In this document: one piece after another, positions 450 through 29,567 of the stretch
Position numbering within the stretch: position 1 is the stretch's first letter
Layout: each line of letters begins with the position of its first letter
From: Candidatus Liptonbacteria bacterium
GTDB lineage: Bacteria > Patescibacteriota > Minisyncoccia > UBA6257 > Colwellbacteraceae
Length of the DNA stretch: 33,249 bases
Reading direction: 5' to 3'
Assembly: GCA_019923695.1 (NCBI GenBank)
Contig: JAHXGO010000006.1
Coordinates: 1 to 33,249, forward strand
Made by a program: the position numbers and the translations under genes
The notes under the pieces: generated by a model
What the model was told of the DNA's origin: nothing
Seen by the model: only the letters and a program-made list of their open reading frames with translations
The model's database searches: none

Positions 450-1196
450 TTAAGTTTTTGCCGCGACCGCAACGATTATTTTTTTTACTCCGTTTTGTTT
501 AAGGATTCTGACAGCTTCGTTTATTGTCGCTCCAGAAGTGAAAACATCGTCAATTAAAATTACGGACTTACCTTTTAGTTTTTCTTTTACAGTTAAAAAA
601 TGATTTTTAGCCGAAAAATAATTCATAACTGAAAAGCAGTTTGATGTTTTTTCTATTTTGAATGCGTTTTTTACGTTTTCCTTTCTTTGTTTATTGTTTT
701 TAAGATTAATTTGTTTTTCTGTAGCTTTAATTCGTTTCAATATTTTATTTTCAATTTTTAATCCGAGTTCTTTGCCTAAAATTTTTGCCAATTCTTCGGA
801 CTGATTGAACCCGCGCTCTCTTTGTCTTATGAAATGAAGAGGGATCGGCACAATCAAAAATGAGTCATCTATTTCTTTTATGATATTGGATTTTTGGAGA
901 TGTATTATAATGAATTTTGTTAATGGTTCGGCGATTTTTATGAATCCTTCGTATTTGAAGTAGTGAATTAATTTTTGGATTGGTTTGTTTTCGTAATTTA
1001 CGGCAGCTGCTAAAATAAAATTTTTATGATGAAAAATTAAGGAATTCACGGTAATTGATTGATGACATTTTTGGCATAAAAAATTCAGTTGTTCTGAATT
1101 TTCAAGATATCGGCGACAGTTAAGACAGAGCGGCGGGAAAATAATATCAAAAACAAAATTTATTATTTTTTTAACCGGGAGAAAGAAACGAATCAT
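450..1196 (-). CDS. comF: ComF family phosphoribosyltransferase / amidophosphoribosyltransferase-like
   Basis: N-terminal Cys pairs (PPLCLNC, CQKC), PLH..RERGFNQSEELAK and the PRPP motif VILIDDVFTSGATINEA. Confidence 0.92.
   Translation of the reverse strand: MIRFFLPVKKIINFVFDIIFPPLCLNCRRYLENSEQLNFLCQKCHQSITVNSLIFHHKNFILAAAVNYENKPIQKLIHYFKYEGFIKIAEPLTKFIIIHLQKSNIIKEIDDSFLIVPIPLHFIRQRERGFNQSEELAKILGKELGLKIENKILKRIKATEKQINLKNNKQRKENVKNAFKIEKTSNCFSVMNYFSAKNHFLTVKEKLKGKSVILIDDVFTSGATINEAVRILKQNGVKKIIVAVAAKT
582..635 (-). repeat. Three consecutive 18-bp repeat units in-frame inside comF
   Basis: Minus-strand units TTTTCAGTTATGAATTAT / TTTTCGGCTAAAAATCAT / TTTTTAACTGTAAAAGAA; unit 618-635 matches unit 12027-12044 at about 13/18 positions. 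Confidence 0.6.
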
Positions 1197-1270
1197 TTTT
1201 TATTATTTAATTTATGATATAATAAATTCGTAAAATTAAAAATTAAATTTTGTGAAGCTGTCCAAGGATT

Positions 1271-1357
1271 ATATTGAATCACAGGTTCAATATGTCAAAA
1301 CTTTCTTTTGTCATAGATTGTCTTTTGATCATAAATTGTCCTTTGACCGCAATAATG
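1271..1357 (-). repeat. Intergenic modular repeat: hairpin (1271-1293) plus three 18-bp units (1304-1357)
   Basis: ATATTGAA-tcacagg-TTCAATAT hairpin followed by tcttttgtcatagattgt / cttttgatcataaattgt / cctttgaccgcaataatg. Confidence 0.75.
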
Positions 1358-3980: not shown

Positions 3981-5804
3981 ATGGATAATAAAAAATTAGC
4001 CCAAGGTCTTATCAAAAACGCCATTTTGTCCGAAGAATTGGCTCAAAAACTTTTGGTTGAATCTTCGCAGATTAATAAATCTTTGGAAAGCATTCTTTAT
4101 ATTCGTCGGTTGGTTGATGAAGTTTCAGTTGCTAAAGTAAAAAGCGAAATTACTGGAGTGCCTTATCAAAAAATAAAATCTGAAGAAATTTCTGAAGAAA
4201 TTTTAAAATTTATTCCCGAAGAAACCGCGATAAATTATAAAATGGTTCCTTTAAAAATGGAAAAAGATATGCTTATTGTGGGGATGATTGATCCTTTAAA
4301 CGCCAAAACGCAGGAAGCTTTGCGTTTTATCAGTCAACAGAATCGTTTGCAAATAGGAATTTATCTTATCACGCCGACTGATATGGAATTGGCTTTAAGA
4401 AGATATTCTCCTTATCAAACTGAAATTCAGGCGGCAGTTAAAGCTTTGAATATAAAATCCGGGGTCGGACTTTCTACTTTGCAAAAGCCGGTTTCTTTGG
4501 AAGCCGGTTCTTCGGTTTCCGATGAAGCGCCGATAATTAAAATAGTTTCTTCAACCTTAAGGGCGGCAATTGAACAAAAAGCTTCGGATATTCATATTGA
4601 GCCGCAAAGAGATCGTTTAAGAATAAGATTCAGGCTGGATGGCATTTTAAAAGAAGTGGCTTCTTTTCCGCTTGAACTTCATCAGCCGATAATCTCCCGG
4701 GTAAAAATACTTTCTGAACTAAAAATTGATGAGACTAGAATTCCTCAAGATGGTCGTTTTAGAACAGTTATCTTTGGCAGGGACATTGATTATAGGATTT
4801 CCACTTTTCCTACTCCGGTTGGTGAAAAAGTGGCTATCCGTGTTTTGGATCCGAGTATTGGTTTAAGAAAAATAACTGATTTGGGAGTGGTCGGAAAAAA
4901 CGCCGATCTTATAAAAGAAGGACTTGAAAAACCCTTTGGGATGATTTTAATTACCGGGCCGACTGGTTCTGGAAAAACAACCACTCTTTACGCAATTCTT
5001 CGGATTTTAAATAATGAAGGAGTTAATGTTTTGAGTTTGGAAGATCCGGTTGAATATGTTATTGACGGAGTAAATCAATCTCAAATTAAGGCTGATATCG
5101 GTTATACTTTCGCTTCTGGTTTAAGGCAGGCAGTCAGGCAAGACCCCGATATTATTTTAGTCGGAGAAATAAGAGATAAGGAAACAGCCGGGTTGGCAGT
5201 TCATTCAGCTTTAACTGGCCACATTGTTTTGTCTACTTTACATACCAATAATTCTTATGGTGTTATTCCAAGACTTATTGATATGGGAGTGGAGCCGTTT
5301 TTACTTCCAGCGTCGCTTAATTTAATGGTTGCTCAAAGACTGGTAAGAAAATTATGTAACGAGTGTAAACAAGCGGAAACCGCTTCTTTGGAGATTCAAG
5401 AGATTATTAAAAACGAAATTTCAAAATTACCTAAAGAAGTTTTAGGCGGACTTTTGGTTAAAGGACAATCTGTGGTTAATAAACAATCCGCAGTTATCGA
5501 GCGGCAGACTGTTCACTATACTGAACAAGATATTATTCGATATGCTGAATCAGCAGTTCATTATAGACCGGTTGGTTGTAAAATTTGTAAGGGGAAGGGG
5601 ACAAGCGGAAGAGTTGGGCTTTATGAAATTTTGAAAATGACCCGAGGAATCGATGAAATTATTAATTCTGGCCCAACAGAAGGAAAATTAAGAGACGAAT
5701 CAAGAAAACAGGGTATGATAAGTTTGCGTCAAGACGGAATATTGAAAGCATTAGATGGTTTAATTTCCATTGAAGAAGTTTTAAAAGAAACAGCCGAAAC
5801 ATAA
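3981..5804 (+). CDS. pilB: Type IV pilus extension ATPase PilB (GspE family)
   Basis: GPTGSGKTTTLYAIL Walker A, SLEDPVEY, DPDIILVGEIRDKETAGLA, C-terminal CxxC pairs. The ORF track starts at TTG 3963; ATG 3981 is more likely. Confidence 0.95.
   Translation: MDNKKLAQGLIKNAILSEELAQKLLVESSQINKSLESILYIRRLVDEVSVAKVKSEITGVPYQKIKSEEISEEILKFIPEETAINYKMVPLKMEKDMLIVGMIDPLNAKTQEALRFISQQNRLQIGIYLITPTDMELALRRYSPYQTEIQAAVKALNIKSGVGLSTLQKPVSLEAGSSVSDEAPIIKIVSSTLRAAIEQKASDIHIEPQRDRLRIRFRLDGILKEVASFPLELHQPIISRVKILSELKIDETRIPQDGRFRTVIFGRDIDYRISTFPTPVGEKVAIRVLDPSIGLRKITDLGVVGKNADLIKEGLEKPFGMILITGPTGSGKTTTLYAILRILNNEGVNVLSLEDPVEYVIDGVNQSQIKADIGYTFASGLRQAVRQDPDIILVGEIRDKETAGLAVHSALTGHIVLSTLHTNNSYGVIPRLIDMGVEPFLLPASLNLMVAQRLVRKLCNECKQAETASLEIQEIIKNEISKLPKEVLGGLLVKGQSVVNKQSAVIERQTVHYTEQDIIRYAESAVHYRPVGCKICKGKGTSGRVGLYEILKMTRGIDEIINSGPTEGKLRDESRKQGMISLRQDGILKALDGLISIEEVLKETAET
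5464..5570 (+). repeat. 18-bp unit array plus hairpin-like tail inside pilB
   Basis: GGACAATCTGTGGTTAAT / AAACAATCCGCAGTTATC / GAGCGGCAGACTGTTCAC / TATACTGAACAAGATATT, then cGATATGCTGAATCAGCAGTTCATTATA. Confidence 0.65.
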
Positions 5805-5805
5805 A

Positions 5806-5978
5806 AAATCTCAAATCTAAAATTTCAAATCTCAAAAACACATCTTAAAGTTAAAATCTTATGGAAAATGATTACAAAAAACAATTTTATCAAATTTGTA
5901 GATTTGAGATTTGATTTTTGAGATTTGAGATAAACTATGGTTGGCAAAAAAGATTATCTGCTATAAAATGTAAATAAT
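5806..5978 (+). repeat. TIR-bounded element, short copy A
   Basis: AAATCTCAAATCT...AGATTTGAGAT inverted ends; 89-nt left block identical to 10561-10649 and 84-nt right block with one mismatch to 10751-10834. Confidence 0.88.
5941..5969 (+). promoter_or_regulatory. Candidate sigma70-type promoter upstream of pilT, carried in the repeat
   Basis: TTGGCA-N17-TAAAAT, 30 nt upstream of the pilT ATG. Confidence 0.5.
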
Positions 5979-5998
5979 GTTTAAGATTTTTATAAAGT

Positions 5999-7072
5999 AT
6001 GATTGATTACAAACAAAAATTAAACGAATTGCTTTTAGCAACAGCCACTCAAAAGGCTTCAGATTTACATATCGCGGTTGGCCGTAAGCCGACTTTAAGA
6101 ATTGATGGAGTTTTAATTCCTTTGCAAAAAGAGCAAGTTTTAACTTCGGAAGACACTCAAGGGTTGATTCTTGAATTATTATTGCCGAAAATTAAAGAAA
6201 GATTTTTAAAATACGGCGATGTTGATTTTTCTTATTCTTTTGAAGATAAGGCAAGGTTTAGGGTGAATGTTTTTTTCCAACGAGGATTTTTAGCCGCTTC
6301 TTTGCGTCTAATTCCCGCTCAAATTAAATCTATTGAGGATCTTAATCTTCCTCTGATTCTTCATGATTTCGCAAAATTAAACCAAGGATTTATTTTAGTT
6401 GTCGGTCCGGCTGGTCACGGAAAGTCAACGACTTTAGCCGCTATTTTAGACGAAATCAACCATAGCAGAAACGAGCATATTATTACTATTGAAGACCCGA
6501 TTGAATATTTGTTTGTCCAAGACAAAAGCATTATTTCCCAAAGAGAAGTTACGATTGACAGTCCAAGTTTTCATAGGGCTTTGAGGTCTTTGTTAAGGCA
6601 GGATCCTGATGTGGCGATGGTTGGGGAAATGAGAGACAGAGAATCAATTGCCACTGCTATGACTGCGGCTGAAACAGGTCATTTAGTTTTTTCGACTTTA
6701 CATACTAACTCTGCCAGTCAAACTATTGACAGAATTATTGATTCTTTTCCGGCCGATCATCAGGGCCAAATAACTTCTCAATTAGCCGCAACTTTGGTCG
6801 CCATTGTTTCTCAAAGACTAGTTCCAAGGATTGACGGCGGAAGAATTCCGGTCTGTGAAATAATGTTTGTTAATTCGGCTATTCGCAATTTAATCAGGGA
6901 GCGGAAGATTTTTCAAATAGATTTGGTTATTGAAACAAGTCTTCAAGAAGGGATGATAACTTTAAATCGCTCCTTGGCCGAGTTAGTTAAAAGAAAAGAA
7001 ATCTCTTTGGAAATCGCCGAATTTTATTCAACTAATCCCGGAGAATTGCGTTTATTATTAGAAAGAATTTAA
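5999..7072 (+). CDS. pilT: Type IV pilus retraction ATPase PilT
   Basis: ASDLHIAVGRKPTLRIDG, GPAGHGKSTTLAAI, IEDPIEYLF, MRDRESIATAMTAAETGHLVFSTLHTNSA. Confidence 0.95.
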   Translation: MIDYKQKLNELLLATATQKASDLHIAVGRKPTLRIDGVLIPLQKEQVLTSEDTQGLILELLLPKIKERFLKYGDVDFSYSFEDKARFRVNVFFQRGFLAASLRLIPAQIKSIEDLNLPLILHDFAKLNQGFILVVGPAGHGKSTTLAAILDEINHSRNEHIITIEDPIEYLFVQDKSIISQREVTIDSPSFHRALRSLLRQDPDVAMVGEMRDRESIATAMTAAETGHLVFSTLHTNSASQTIDRIIDSFPADHQGQITSQLAATLVAIVSQRLVPRIDGGRIPVCEIMFVNSAIRNLIRERKIFQIDLVIETSLQEGMITLNRSLAELVKRKEISLEIAEFYSTNPGELRLLLERI

Positions 7073-8888: not shown

Positions 8889-8900
8889 AAAACTTTAATC

Positions 8901-9022
8901 CGATATATTGAGTGGCGTGTTGTCCACTATAAATTATCCTTGCAACCGATGGATAATCTGTGGCCAAAGGATAAATTATAGCTAATGGTCAACTTATAAT
9001 CGAAGAGCAATCTGTATATAAG
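8901..9022 (+). repeat. Intergenic modular repeat: hairpin plus 18-bp units
   Basis: cgatatattgAGTGGcgtgttgtCCACTata, then GGATAATCTGTGGCCAAA / GGATAAATTATAGCTAAT / GGTCAACTTATAATCGAA / GAGCAATCTGTATATAAG. Confidence 0.75.
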
Positions 9023-9983: not shown

Positions 9984-10556
9984 ATGAATAAGTTTGCGGT
10001 TAAAAAACAATTTTTGGTTGAAGGACAGATAAAAAAAAGAAAGGGCTTTACTATTATCGAGGTTATTATAACGATCGGGATAATTGGAATTATGATATCG
10101 TCAATGGGTATAGTGATTGATAGACAAGAGCTTGTTTTTAATCTGGATCATCATAAATTAAGAGCTTTAATAAGCAGGGCAAAATCATTGACAATGTTCG
10201 GAGTATTTCAGGAAAAACCCGGGTCCCGATTTTGCGGTTATGGAGTAGAAATTAACGCTTCAGAAGGAAGGGCGGTTATTTTTAAGTCATTTAGCCGTGT
10301 AGAATGTCCTCCGGCCAGTTTTGGCGATTTTATTAGACGAGAACCTCTTTCCGGCGAATTAAACGAGTTAAGACTTGATAGGTTTTTAAGCTTTGAAGAA
10401 TCGGTTTATATTTTTTTTATTCCCCCTGATCCTAGTGTTCATATTTATGATATCCGAGGAATCCGAACTAATTCATTTACTATAAGAATGATAAACGAAA
10501 TCGGGAATGTTAGAAAAATAAATGTTAATTCCGCCGGCTTAATAGATTTATTGTAA
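9984..10556 (+). CDS. Pseudopilin
   Basis: KKRKGFTIIEVIITIGIIGIMISS. Confidence 0.8.
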   Translation: MNKFAVKKQFLVEGQIKKRKGFTIIEVIITIGIIGIMISSMGIVIDRQELVFNLDHHKLRALISRAKSLTMFGVFQEKPGSRFCGYGVEINASEGRAVIFKSFSRVECPPASFGDFIRREPLSGELNELRLDRFLSFEESVYIFFIPPDPSVHIYDIRGIRTNSFTIRMINEIGNVRKINVNSAGLIDLL

Positions 10557-10560
10557 AAAG

Positions 10561-10834
10561 AAATCTCAAATCTAAAATTTCAAATCTCAAAAACACATCT
10601 TAAAGTTAAAATCTTATGGAAAATGATTACAAAAAACAATTTTATCAAAAGAGAAGGGCAAAAAAATTTTAAAAGAAGCCAAAGAAATCGCCAACATTTT
10701 AGCCGCCAGCATCATTACAATGAAAAATAAAAGAAAGATTTAAGATTTTATTTGTAGATTTGAGATTTGATTTTTGAGATTTGAGATAAACTATGGTTGG
10801 CAAAAAAGATTGTCTGCTATAAAATGTAAATAAT
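10561..10834 (+). repeat. TIR-bounded element, longer copy B, with four-helix-bundle ORF debris
   Basis: Same 89-nt and 84-nt blocks as copy A, with 101 extra nt encoding ..GKKILKEAKEIANILAASIITMKNKRKI*; the start MENDYKKQFYQ is out of frame with this tail. Confidence 0.85.
10797..10825 (+). promoter_or_regulatory. Candidate promoter carried by repeat copy B
   Basis: TTGGCA-N17-TAAAAT. Confidence 0.45.
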
Positions 10835-10877
10835 ACTCGGAATTCTTGTAAATAATAATACAATAACAACCAACAAT

Positions 10878-11381
10878 ATGTTTTTTTTAGATAATAATCG
10901 TAAAAATAGATCGGGCCAGCTTTTAGTTGAGGGGTTAGTTGCTTTAAGTATTTTGACAATTGTGATTTTGGGCGTTGTTGCTATACTTTCAAGATCTTTT
11001 AGACAAACGAGAATAGTATTTGAAACGGCAATTGCCTCTAATTTAGCGGCTGAAGGAGCAGAGGTCGCAAAAAACATTATAGACAGGAATGTCTGGACAA
11101 ATCCTTTTAGACCTTGGAATGAGGGAATTTCTGAAGGAAAGTTTTCTGTTAATTATAACAGCGAAAGCTTTGGTTCATATCAAGATCGATTTATTCGTTT
11201 TAATCCGCAAACTGGAATTTACAGCTCTCAAGACGGTGTTCTAACTCCTTTTGAAAGAGTCATTGAAATGTCAATTATTTCTCCTAACCTTGTAAAAATA
11301 AAATCTACTGTAACTTGGCAAATACCCGGGACTCCTGAAAGAGAAGTTTCTGTTGAACATAATGTTTTGGGTTGGAGGTAA
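10878..11381 (+). CDS. PilV-like minor pseudopilin
   Basis: SGQLLVEGLVALSILTIVILGVVAIL; position among minor pilins. Confidence 0.7.
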   Translation: MFFLDNNRKNRSGQLLVEGLVALSILTIVILGVVAILSRSFRQTRIVFETAIASNLAAEGAEVAKNIIDRNVWTNPFRPWNEGISEGKFSVNYNSESFGSYQDRFIRFNPQTGIYSSQDGVLTPFERVIEMSIISPNLVKIKSTVTWQIPGTPEREVSVEHNVLGWR

Positions 11382-12007: not shown

Positions 12008-12061
12008 TTTATGTTTATGGCCAACGGACAATCTATGACTGAAAGACAACCCAACGATTTA
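12008..12061 (+). repeat. Three 18-bp units overlapping the 5' end of the PilX-like ORF
   Basis: TTTATGTTTATGGCCAAC / GGACAATCTATGACTGAA / AGACAACCCAACGATTTA. Confidence 0.65.
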
Positions 12062-12475
12062 AAAAAACACAAGAACAGCGAACTACAGACTCATTATATT
12101 AAACTCGAAACTCACCAGAGAAAGGGTCAAATAATGATTTTTACCGCAATAGTCTTTATCGGAGCTATTATGATGATAGGTGTTTTTGTCGGTCTTTTGG
12201 TTCTTTTTGGGTTTGCTCAATCAACTAATATACCTCTTTCATCTGAATCTATTTTTGCCGCTGACGCTGGCATTGAATGTGTGATTAATAAAAAATTTGG
12301 AATTATTGAAGGATCCAATTGTCCAGAAGCAGAAACAATAAAAACCCTTGGTAACGGCTCAAGATTTCAATATCGACAGCTATATGATAATAATACTTGG
12401 GTTGCCATAGGTATGGATAGAAAAGGAAGAACAGTAAGGGCTTTACAAATAAGGTTTGAAGAAGTACGATTATAA
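12011..12475 (+). CDS. PilX-like minor pilus protein
   Basis: KGQIMIFTAIVFIGAIMMIGVFVGLL followed by AADAGIECV. N-terminal about 35 aa are repeat-derived; start uncertain. Confidence 0.6.
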   Translation: MFMANGQSMTERQPNDLKKHKNSELQTHYIKLETHQRKGQIMIFTAIVFIGAIMMIGVFVGLLVLFGFAQSTNIPLSSESIFAADAGIECVINKKFGIIEGSNCPEAETIKTLGNGSRFQYRQLYDNNTWVAIGMDRKGRTVRALQIRFEEVRL

Positions 12476-13452: not shown

Positions 13453-13545
13453 TTGATATATCGAACCTATGGCTTGCTATAGTTTAGTTATTTCAATAAT
13501 TATACGTTCACATATAACCATATAACAATCATAGCAAGCGCGTTT

Positions 13546-19172: not shown

Positions 19173-19910
19173 ATGTTCTTACCCGCAAAAAAGGGCCTTA
19201 AAGATATATTAATCTACTTTATTTTAGGGGTTTTCGCTTTTTTTGTTTTTTTTGCCGGTGAAAATATTATTAGGTTTAAAAACGAAATCTTTGAGCCGAA
19301 AAGACAGGAGGAAATAATTAATATTCTTTCTCAAAAAAATAAGGAACTTGAAGCTGAAATTTTTAAGCTGCAAATTAAATTACCGGAGAGAAAAATTGAC
19401 TATCAACGAGCCAAAGTTTATTCTAATTATCCGTTTTCTAATAAATCGGAAATAGTTATTGATATTGGAAGCTTGTCTGGAATTAAGGAGGGATCAGCCG
19501 TAACCGCGGATGGAAAAAATTTAATCGGAAAAGTTAAAAAAGTTTATAATAACATTAGCGTTGTTCAAACGATTTTTAGCCCTGATTTTAAGATTCCGGT
19601 AAGAATAGGGCTTGGAGAAATTGACGCTCTTTATACCGGCGGATTAAGCCCGAGACTTAGTCTTATAGCGAACCATAGGCTCGATATATCAGAACCCCGT
19701 TCTGCCGTAACAAACCCCGAGCTGGATATAATTAGCATTCAAGTTGGCGAATATGTAGTTTCCGCTTCAAAAGATTTTCCTTATGGTCTTGTTTTAGGGA
19801 AAATTAGAGAAATCACTGCTAAAGGTCGATTTAAAGAGGCAACATTAGAGCCGATTTACGAAATTAAAGATTTAAGAAATGTTTATGTGGCCATCGGTTG
19901 GACTAATTGA
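19173..19910 (+). CDS. mreC: Rod shape-determining protein MreC
   Basis: N-terminal TM and coiled coil, VIDIGSLSGIKEGSAVTADGKNLIGKVKKV. Confidence 0.88.
   Translation: MFLPAKKGLKDILIYFILGVFAFFVFFAGENIIRFKNEIFEPKRQEEIINILSQKNKELEAEIFKLQIKLPERKIDYQRAKVYSNYPFSNKSEIVIDIGSLSGIKEGSAVTADGKNLIGKVKKVYNNISVVQTIFSPDFKIPVRIGLGEIDALYTGGLSPRLSLIANHRLDISEPRSAVTNPELDIISIQVGEYVVSASKDFPYGLVLGKIREITAKGRFKEATLEPIYEIKDLRNVYVAIGWTN
19668..19700 (-). repeat. 28-nt module shared with intergenic 13453-13482
   Basis: tatagcgaaccataggctcgatatatca (mreC) versus tatagcaagccataggttcgatatatca (reverse complement of the intergenic copy), 25/28. Confidence 0.65.
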
Positions 19911-23382: not shown

Positions 23383-24537
23383 ATGTCAATTTTACTTTTG
23401 AGAACTAATTTAGATTTTCAGCCGGAAGAATTTTCTTCTTCATTAAGGGCAAAGAATTTTATTTCCGCCATTAAATTATTTGGCAGAAAAAACAAAATAG
23501 TTGTTTTAAGCCATCGGGGAAGGCCGAATTTGTCCCGCAAGCTTTCTTTAAATCCCTTTGTAAAACCGATTTCCGATTCATTGGGTTATCCGTTGGCTGT
23601 AGGTCATCCGTTGGCTGTAAAAAAAGCTGTAAAAAAACCGGTTTATTTTATTGATGTTAAAAAAGTGGGTTTTATAAAAACTAAAAACCAAATTAAAAAC
23701 TCGGCTAATGGAAGCGTTTTTTTGCTGGAAAATTTGCGTTTTTTCCCCGGTGAAGAAAAAAATAGCAGGGGATTGGCTAAAAATCTGGCTTCTTTAGGAG
23801 ATATTTATATAAACGATGATTTTGCCAGCTCTCATCGAAAACATGCGTCTTTGGTTGCGATAACCGAATTTTTGCCTTGTTTTGCCGGTCCGAGTTTAAT
23901 GAGAGAAATCAACGCCTTAGGAAAAGTTTTAAAGAAAACTAAAAAACCTTTTGTTGTTATAGTCGGCGGAATAAAAATTTTGGATAAACTTCAAATAATC
24001 CAAAATTTTATTCGCCGAGCGAATTTTGTTTTAACCGGCGGGGGAGTGGCTAATACTTTTTTAAAAGCAAAAAACATAGATATTGGGAATTCATTATTTG
24101 AAAAATTAATGGTTAAAAAAGCGGGGTCTTTGATTAATTCTTCTTTAGGCAGAAAAAAAATTATACTGCCGCTTGATTTTAAAAAAGAAAAAAACCGAAA
24201 TTTAGATATTGGTCCGAAAACTATTAAAAAATACGCGGAAATTATTAAAGAGGCGCGAACTATTATTTGGGCCGGGCCAATGGGCTACATTGAAGATAAA
24301 CGATTTATCAAAGGCACAAAAACGATTATCAAAGAAATTATAAAAAGTCGCGCTTTTTCAATTATTGGCGGCGGTGAAACCACTTCAGTTATGCCAAAAA
24401 TCAAAAATCAAAAGTCAAAAGTTTTTATAAGCGCTGGCGGCGGCGCAATGTTAGAATATTTGGCAGGTAAAAAAATGCCGGCAATTGAAGCTTTAAGAAA
24501 AAATGGTAAAATTTTTACATATAAAAATAAAAAATGA
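23383..24537 (+). CDS. pgk: Phosphoglycerate kinase, divergent
   Basis: VVLSHRGRPN, LLENLRFFPGEEKN, ASLGDIYINDDFASSHRKHAS, LDIGPKT, WAGPMG, GGGETTSVM. Confidence 0.88.
   Translation: MSILLLRTNLDFQPEEFSSSLRAKNFISAIKLFGRKNKIVVLSHRGRPNLSRKLSLNPFVKPISDSLGYPLAVGHPLAVKKAVKKPVYFIDVKKVGFIKTKNQIKNSANGSVFLLENLRFFPGEEKNSRGLAKNLASLGDIYINDDFASSHRKHASLVAITEFLPCFAGPSLMREINALGKVLKKTKKPFVVIVGGIKILDKLQIIQNFIRRANFVLTGGGVANTFLKAKNIDIGNSLFEKLMVKKAGSLINSSLGRKKIILPLDFKKEKNRNLDIGPKTIKKYAEIIKEARTIIWAGPMGYIEDKRFIKGTKTIIKEIIKSRAFSIIGGGETTSVMPKIKNQKSKVFISAGGGAMLEYLAGKKMPAIEALRKNGKIFTYKNKK
23590..23625 (-). repeat. Two 18-bp repeat units in-frame in pgk
   Basis: CCGTTGGCTGTAGGTCAT / CCGTTGGCTGTAAAAAAA. Confidence 0.7.
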
Positions 24538-25825: not shown

Positions 25826-25865
25826 TTTTGCACAAAAACTTTTCTTTGGATTATTTTACAATCAT

Positions 25866-25997
25866 AGCAAATCGCGGGTTTGATATGCTAAAACATTATT
25901 TCTTGGTTAGAAATTGTCCATTGGTCAGAAATAACCTTTTGGCTATAGGTTGTTTTTCAGCCATAACGAATGATATGTCGCTCAATATATCAAATTT
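25866..25997 (-). repeat. Best-preserved modular repeat: head, four 18-bp units, tail
   Basis: Units ttcttggttagaaattgt / ccattggtcagaaataac / cttttggctataggttgt / ttttcagccataacgaat (25900-25971), tail gatatgtcgctcaatatatcaaattt. Confidence 0.8.
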
Positions 25998-26029
25998 GGG
26001 ACATAATAAAAAATAAAATTTATATTATT

Positions 26030-26463
26030 GGTAATTCATAAGCCGGATTCTGTTCCCTACCTTATTTTTGCCGATGATGCTTATAAACATCATCAATTAA
26101 AATGAGATGGGGCGACGATAATTTATCTGGGCCATTGATTACTCGCAGGCTCAAGCGGCACTCTCCGATAAAATATCGGAGCGCGGCCTTGCACCCCGTA
26201 AGGATTTAGCCGTTTCACCCTTTGCATTACTGCAGAGGATTACCCTGTAAAAACAGGGTCTCTTAACCCTTTCGGATTTTGACGTCTCTGTTCGCACCTC
26301 TACCCAACTCTTTTTGAAGAGAAAGCCGGGCGGCGGCTGTTAGCCGATACGTTTCTTTATTTTATTTTTGTTAAAGAAGGTGTCCGGACTTTCCTCTCCT
26401 CGTCATTTTTATAAATTATTAAATAAATATAAAAACAGCAAGGAGCTATCGTCTGAATTACCG
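26030..26463 (-). ncRNA. rnpB: RNase P RNA (bacterial)
   Basis: Minus strand has GAGGAAAGTCCGGACACC near the 5' end and ACAGAATCCGGCTTATGAATTACC at the 3' end; P1 ggtaattca/tgaattacc closes it. Confidence 0.95.
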
Positions 26464-26501
26464 GTTAAAAATTATAATATTTTATGTAAAATGTCAAATA
26501 A

Positions 26502-29150: not shown

Positions 29151-29567
29151 ATGCAAGAAGAAGAATTAAAAAAATACCAAAATAAGCTGACTGAGTTGAA
29201 AAAAAAGTTGGAAAAAGAAATTAAAGAAACTCCGGACATTATTGATTATGGAACCGAAGCGGGAGAAGACGAAGAAGTTGATGAGGCAATTTCCGCCGAT
29301 GTTCAAGCCAGCCTTAAAAAAAACTTTAAAAGACGCCTTGAAGATGTTAAATCCGCTCTTATTAAAATCAAGGAAAAAACATACGGTCTTTGTGAAAAAT
29401 GCAAAGGTGAAATTGAAAAAGAAATTTTAAAAATCGACCCCGAATCCCGTCACTGTAAAAAGGAAAAAACATACGGTCTTTGTGAAAAATGCAAAGGTGA
29501 AATTGAAAAAGAAATTTTAAAAATCGACCCCGAATCCCGTCACTGTAAAAAACATAAATCTATTTAA
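29151..29567 (+). CDS. DksA/TraR C4-type zinc finger protein with duplicated C-terminal finger half
   Basis: EEVDEAISADVQASLKKNFKRRLEDVKSALIKIKEKTYGLCEKCKGEIEKEIL; coiled coil plus CxxC. Confidence 0.88.
   Translation: MQEEELKKYQNKLTELKKKLEKEIKETPDIIDYGTEAGEDEEVDEAISADVQASLKKNFKRRLEDVKSALIKIKEKTYGLCEKCKGEIEKEILKIDPESRHCKKEKTYGLCEKCKGEIEKEILKIDPESRHCKKHKSI
29370..29551 (+). repeat. Perfect 90-bp tandem duplication
   Basis: Positions 29370-29461 are identical to 29460-29551 (period 90), encoding a 30-aa repeat. Confidence 0.97.

Follow-up and report, generated by a model that had tools for sequence, protein, structure and literature searches.

A probable frame-preserving small repeat element with an 18-bp unit in the small genome of a Candidatus Liptonbacteria bacterium

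The genome of this Candidatus Liptonbacteria bacterium carries short tandem arrays of a degenerate 18-bp unit, with the consensus GGACAATYTATGRCCAAM. We consider these arrays probably to be copies of a lineage-specific, non-autonomous, frame-preserving small repeat element that has inserted at dozens of places and in both orientations. The source genome amounts to 422 kb in 22 contigs and is estimated to be 96% complete; the genomes of close relatives measure 0.4-0.7 Mb, and those of a wider sample of the phylum are of like size, which points to an organism of the Patescibacteria (CPR) type. The stretch of DNA that was analyzed here, which we call the window (33,249 nucleotides, contig 19 of the assembly), has a G+C content of 34% compared with 41-52% in eight sampled relatives.

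Results

Period and sequence of the repeat unit

A preliminary description of the window had claimed an exact 18-bp period at positions 25866-25997. In a four-letter autocorrelation with a threshold of 25/36, lag 18 was unremarkable. When the sequence was recoded as purines and pyrimidines, however, lag 18 was the only one among lags 10-30 at which 36-nt stretches matched in at least 33 of 36 positions (19 positions, the best reaching 35/36), while the remaining lags peaked at no more than 32/36. The claimed period is thus confirmed in the purine/pyrimidine code and stays hidden in the four-letter code, because the units vary mostly by transitions. A profile was built from the matches and then refined, yielding the consensus GGACAATCTATGGCCAAA. 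G and A alternate mainly at unit positions 1, 2, 12 and 13, and C and T at positions 4, 7, 8, 14 and 15; mismatches among units are mostly transitions and cluster at the G/C positions of the unit. As the alternating positions are the G/C positions, the simplest reading of the unit variation would be a G/C-richer ancestor near GGACAACCTATGGCCAAC that has been decaying toward A+T. Covariation between pairs of positions within the unit was weak and scattered.

The units follow one another head to tail, some two to seven to a run, forming tracts of 36 to about 123 bp, and have no unique spacers between them, which sets the arrays apart from CRISPRs. Similarity among units is higher within a locus than across loci (0 of 300 permutations), and therefore local gain of units occurs; identical adjacent units mark local expansions at C4 and C12:5687. 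The order of two units common to several loci showed no excess over chance, so that copying of blocks is not demonstrated. For one-unit (18-bp) copies, 48 matches scored above threshold compared with 9 for the reversed profile, and at least one of the 48 resembles native MurA sequence.

Loci in the window

The 18-bp loci of the window are the following:

25895..25966, minus strand: intergenic array of about four periods, lying between an RNase H-like gene and rnpB
1303..1352, minus strand: array of about three periods, intergenic, upstream of a pilM-like gene
5444..5498, plus strand: array in a PilB/GspE-type ATPase gene, read in frame 0 as GQSVVN/KQSAVI
8939..9015, plus strand: array of four units and partial units, upstream of a prepilin peptidase gene
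12014..12053, plus strand: element of minimal size (40 bp) at the N-terminal end of ORF 12011-12475 (MANGQSMTERQP)
23582..23621, minus strand: minimal 40-bp element in the phosphoglycerate kinase (PGK) gene, antisense reading YPLAVGHPLAV
9987..10027, plus strand: probably a decayed element, where ORF 9984-10556 starts, refined-profile score 17.9
598..633, plus strand: doubtful, very decayed candidate in a ComF-like gene, first-profile score 20, lost after refinement

Arrays had previously been proposed at 25900-25971, 1304-1357, 5464-5535, 8951-9022, 12008-12061 and 23590-23625, and all of them score with the profile (at 25902-25955, minus; 1306-1341, minus; 5445-5498, plus; 8951-9022, plus; 12026-12043, plus; and 23592-23609, minus, respectively), with partial units on each side. 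The array proposed at 582-635, within the ComF-like gene, fared less well, since it reached a score of 20 with the first profile but was gone with the refined one. A candidate in DnaG (C17:34464) was dropped as marginal. The class A RNase P RNA gene of the window (26024-26464, minus strand) scores 90 bits against an Rfam gathering cut-off of 100 and contains extra loop sequence.

Distribution within and beyond the genome

About 36 array loci were found in approximately 105 kb of the 422-kb genome, a count that rests on sequence partly picked around matches; the unselected window alone gives six to seven good loci per 33 kb. Genome-wide, 39 matches were obtained at three or fewer mismatches compared with 2 for the reversed pattern, and a 36-nt model, R1, gave 43 matches (E ≤ 0.01), which bears out the idea of a dispersed family, enriched across the genome and present in both orientations. 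Conservation of the units outside this genome was, on the other hand, absent: R1 matched at most once in any of 149 further genomes from the order and, at E 0.001, not at all in a further 379 from the phylum. No convincing match to the unit came from searches of viral contigs, phages and plasmids, and a scan of 84,980 species genomes, which may omit the present one, returned four isolated matches in unrelated taxa. Arrays of other units were sought in eight relatives of the family, and no lag-18 peak was found comparable to that of the own-genome sample, which had been chosen around matches. As the enrichment is strong in the own genome, we read the absence of units elsewhere as lineage specificity and not as a refutation of the family; as far as the searched data reach, the 18-bp family is specific to this lineage.

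Palindromes next to the arrays form a separate family

In the preliminary description, the array at 25900-25971 was framed by a head and a tail, thought to be modules of the repeat itself. Both are instead copies of a dispersed palindrome, family C (TATATYGA-stem-loop-stem-TCRCTATA), which also adjoins other arrays:

25860..25891, minus strand: family C copy, formerly the "head" (R2 model, E 0.003; family hairpin covariation)
25959..25993, minus strand: family C copy, formerly the "tail" (R2 model, E 0.0065)
1267..1298, minus strand: family C palindrome adjoining the array at 1303..1352
8900..8934, plus strand: family C palindrome adjoining the array at 8939..9015

Among 19 copies of family C, standard pairs occupy 95% of pair cells and four pairs change on both sides, slid controls all being far lower; a covariance model gave 81 matches in this genome and 0 in 26 relatives. 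In the window, three intergenic arrays have a family C copy no more than 50 bp away, and beside the great majority of intragenic arrays none was seen. Most arrays are not accompanied by the head and tail, and family C copies are neighbors, not modules, of the 18-bp arrays. Other copies of family C occur in the window (e.g., 14-48, 13453-13484 and 19661-19692), and the family sometimes forms overlapping alternating runs (e.g., C21:1049-1142).

Further repeats were observed in this genome. Two copies of a longer repeat with degenerate heptamer runs (AAATCTC) lie at 5803-6022 and 10558-10878 of the window, and a piece of it recurs at C1:38799. A repeat family starting TGTAAAATTTCATAATGTTGTTTACATTTTCGG, with copies 95-100% alike, was found at C1:31943, C2:7639, C12:41709 and C12:4554, two of its copies adjoining 18-bp arrays. 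The window also contains an exact 90-bp tandem duplication (29370-29549) in an ORF with a dksA/traR zinc finger (29151-29567), adding 30 identical residues, which is either a recent duplication or an assembly artefact.

Arrays within conserved genes

Counting ORFs of 120 codons or more, of which one or more (C2:7531) may be spurious, 27 of the 36 loci lie within an ORF and nine lie outside; at least 25 are intragenic, in host genes that are mostly conserved. The hosts, some named by sequence or family search and others by eye from the sequence, include isoleucyl-, phenylalanyl- and glutamyl-tRNA synthetases, EF-G, RecO, GatA, MurF, RNase III, a RelA/SpoT protein, a primary sigma factor, PGK and PilB. 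Two elements reside in the gene for ribosomal protein L4 and two, oppositely oriented, in that for SMC. Apart from the 18-bp repeat, the isoleucyl-tRNA synthetase (C1:3604-6006) has a complete histidine phosphatase domain inserted (Pfam His_Phos_1, E 4e-32; fragment residues 139-300). The arrays are read in forward frame 0 (GQSMAN) in 11 cases, reverse frame 0 (VGHRLS) in seven, reverse frame 1 (LAIDCP) in six, forward frame 1 in two and forward frame 2 in one, and never in reverse frame 2, which has a stop in each unit. With multiple reading frames in use, a peptide function common to all copies is unlikely.

Inserts were called from alignments with up to 19 orthologues of the same family. 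RplD (L4) has extra residues at two sites, one of about 36 residues that is only partly recognizable as repeat, and the other, site two, of exactly 12 residues (ELPLGQGLSVGQ), equal to two units. Approximately 23 residues of RecO and 12-17 of PheS are absent from same-family orthologues, as are about 26 residues of PilB from 19 relatives, and PGK has 16 extra residues, 12 of which represent two units and four a neighboring 12-bp duplication. EF-G has 13 residues for which its E. coli counterpart has none. At tightly aligned sites the extra length corresponds to whole units, the smallest inserts being 36 bp. Judged by these alignments, the intragenic arrays are insertions relative to the orthologues. 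As the insert consists of whole units, multiples of six codons are added and the gene is rarely broken; the frame preservation foreseen from 18 being a multiple of 3 is thus seen both in the in-frame intragenic arrays and in the gaps of the orthologues. The insert sites of PheS and PilB are loops that are variable in some relatives too, as expected if only tolerated insertions survive. In the AlphaFold model of PGK (mean pLDDT 90), the insert is predicted, at low confidence, to form a loop that connects a helix with a strand, the insert region (residues 71-80) having a mean pLDDT of about 51.

Array ends and folding

Ends were located by extending each array outward in phase and keeping the best-scoring segment. 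The array ends are fixed: left ends fall at unit phase 7-8 in 22 of 36 cases, compared with a mean of 4.9 and a maximum of 12 in simulations with random ends, and 18 of 36 right ends fall at phase 10-11, compared with a simulated mean of 4.6 and maximum of 10. An array runs from YYTATGG on the left to ACAAYYYR on the right, spans about 18n+4 bp and has the 4-bp word YYTA at either end. The terminal inverted repeats typical of MITEs were not found, as YYTATGG and ACAAYYYR are not complementary. In a hand-typed table of the readable ends, in which some monomers are doubtful, the left 4-mer is T-rich (TTTR) and the right one contains more C; in the same table, which consists of decayed copies, the two end 4-mers of one locus resemble each other no more than those of different loci do. 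A left word derived from the host and a right word derived from the element would fit these ends better than would a target duplication. Relative to dinucleotide shuffles, RNA of the arrays folded no better (z-scores from -1.8 to +1.7), and no stable hairpin was obtained.

No enzyme linked to the 18-bp arrays was found, and the sole Y1 transposase gene that the genome yielded has another repeat at its flanks. This IS200/RAYT-like gene (C7:8832-9065, within C7:8580-9302, minus strand) has on both sides an exact palindrome, TTACGATGTCGGGAATCGTAA, which belongs neither to the 18-bp family nor to family C. A degenerate third copy of this palindrome is apparently in frame inside the Y1 gene (SYDVGNRK).

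Discussion

How the repeat may spread

Read from its left junction, the element would be (TGGCCAACGGACAAYYTA)n placed 3' of a T-rich site (TTTR). Copied units may insert at TTTR-like sites either through a site-specific enzyme, which the phase-locked ends favor, or through template switching at a 4-bp match, which the absence of a linked enzyme favors. Most copies would be selfish DNA that surface loops tolerate. Only one of the unit's six frames is usually closed, the other five being open, which would allow genes to survive the insertion, and copies would later shed or acquire units and decay through G/C-to-A/T transitions. We infer the spread of the element from insertion together with dispersal, both read from sequence, and its mobility from gaps in the protein alignments, because the nearest genomes belong to other genera. 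It is tempting to go further, although only tentatively, and to regard the repeat as a minimal class of mobile DNA with an 18-bp unit and with neither inverted repeats nor evident target duplication, of which whole units insert 3' of TTTR. Such DNA would be frame-safe on both strands by virtue of its length and stop-poor sequence, and hence could colonize the essential genes of a gene-dense, ultra-small genome.

A possible but rather unlikely alternative dispenses with dedicated mobility altogether: a 3' end stalled in TTTA would anneal to the TTTA/YYTA of an array elsewhere, copy one or more 18-bp periods and return, adding 18n bp. Such replication errors would account for an added length of 18n and for a 4-bp word that is identical at the two ends, and they would explain frame preservation without selection. 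The end 4-mers uncorrelated within a locus (no target-site duplication being seen), the lack of a linked transposase and the local expansions at C4 and C12:5687 are also in line with them. Yet entry would be expected at any unit phase, whereas the ends cluster at one phase beyond simulation, and the shared unit order expected from block copying did not rise above chance.

We regard it as improbable that the units are binding or DNA-uptake sites, comparable to the DUS of Neisseria or the USS of Haemophilus, which selection or biased uptake would maintain without any mobile element. A short conserved word in both orientations, in genic as well as intergenic positions, and the type IV pilus genes in the same window would suit such a role; but uptake words arise mainly by point change and bring no added length, whereas here blocks of codons are added relative to orthologues, the tandem arrays with fixed ends are unlike the form of DUS/USS, and a density of roughly one locus every 5-12 kb is low for such a signal. 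Little can be said for an RNA-level element, a palindrome whose stable stem-loop matters, as in Rickettsia palindromic elements (RPEs): the unit does contain a weak dyad (GGnCA..TGnCC) and weak 14-to-2' co-variation (z 3), but the arrays fold no better than dinucleotide shuffles, unlike family C with its clear pair covariation, and we hold this reading to be highly improbable. That the repeat is a module selected for protein function, such as binding or a role at the surface, in the manner of PARCELs and other domains of repeat proteins, is scarcely credible. Most copies are presumably translated, judging by their location in ORFs, but five frames on both strands give unrelated peptides (GQSMAN, VGHRLS, LAIDCP, QRTIYG), the hosts are unrelated cytosolic enzymes and copies are also intergenic.

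Comparison with known repeats

Cyanobacterial STRRs are heptamers and SDRs are 21-27-nt palindromes; both are very short units, tandem or dispersed, and lineage-specific. The 18-bp element resembles them in its very short lineage-specific units, and in-frame 18n insertion with fixed ends is not known from them. Elements of the IS200/IS605 and REP/RAYT types enter on the 3' side of a short word and do not duplicate the target. A Y1 transposase gene is present in this genome as well, but the 18-bp units lack terminal hairpins and the gene is not flanked by them. PARCELs are tandem repeats of variable number inside ORFs that have been proposed to move within genomes (PMC2996958). They encode one 25-aa amphipathic motif in ORFs of no assigned function, whereas the 18-bp unit is read in five frames and in housekeeping genes.

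RPEs and the WPEs of Wolbachia are small repeats dispersed in reduced genomes, found in frame in conserved protein genes and between genes, and the regions of their insertion are reported to be solvent-exposed (PMC2229807, PMC10969869, PMC3767692). In-frame insertion into conserved protein genes is shared by the 18-bp element. In contrast, RPEs are palindromes of ~70-150 bp that have inverted repeats at their termini and fold into stable stem-loops, and the 18-bp element, compared by architecture, is a non-palindromic tandem with a variable number of units and no stable fold. As neither the palindrome with its stem-loop nor the 70-150 bp length was found, the element works like an RPE without being one; RPEs, named as its closest analogue from the outset, are so in behavior (PMC2229807, PMC10969869, PMC3767692). 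A literature search, with most subscription journals outside its scope, found no such family described in CPR bacteria.

Selfish sequences inserted in frame into core genes have been known mainly from Rickettsia and Wolbachia, where they are palindromes. If our reading is true, the 18-bp element would represent a second, structurally different solution, and frame-safe repeats would recur in gene-dense reduced genomes. Its copies would amount to a natural experiment that shows at which sites PGK, EF-G, PheS and similar enzymes, as well as ribosomal protein L4, tolerate six or more extra residues, and would explain lineage-specific insertions in the alignments and structure predictions of the host proteins.
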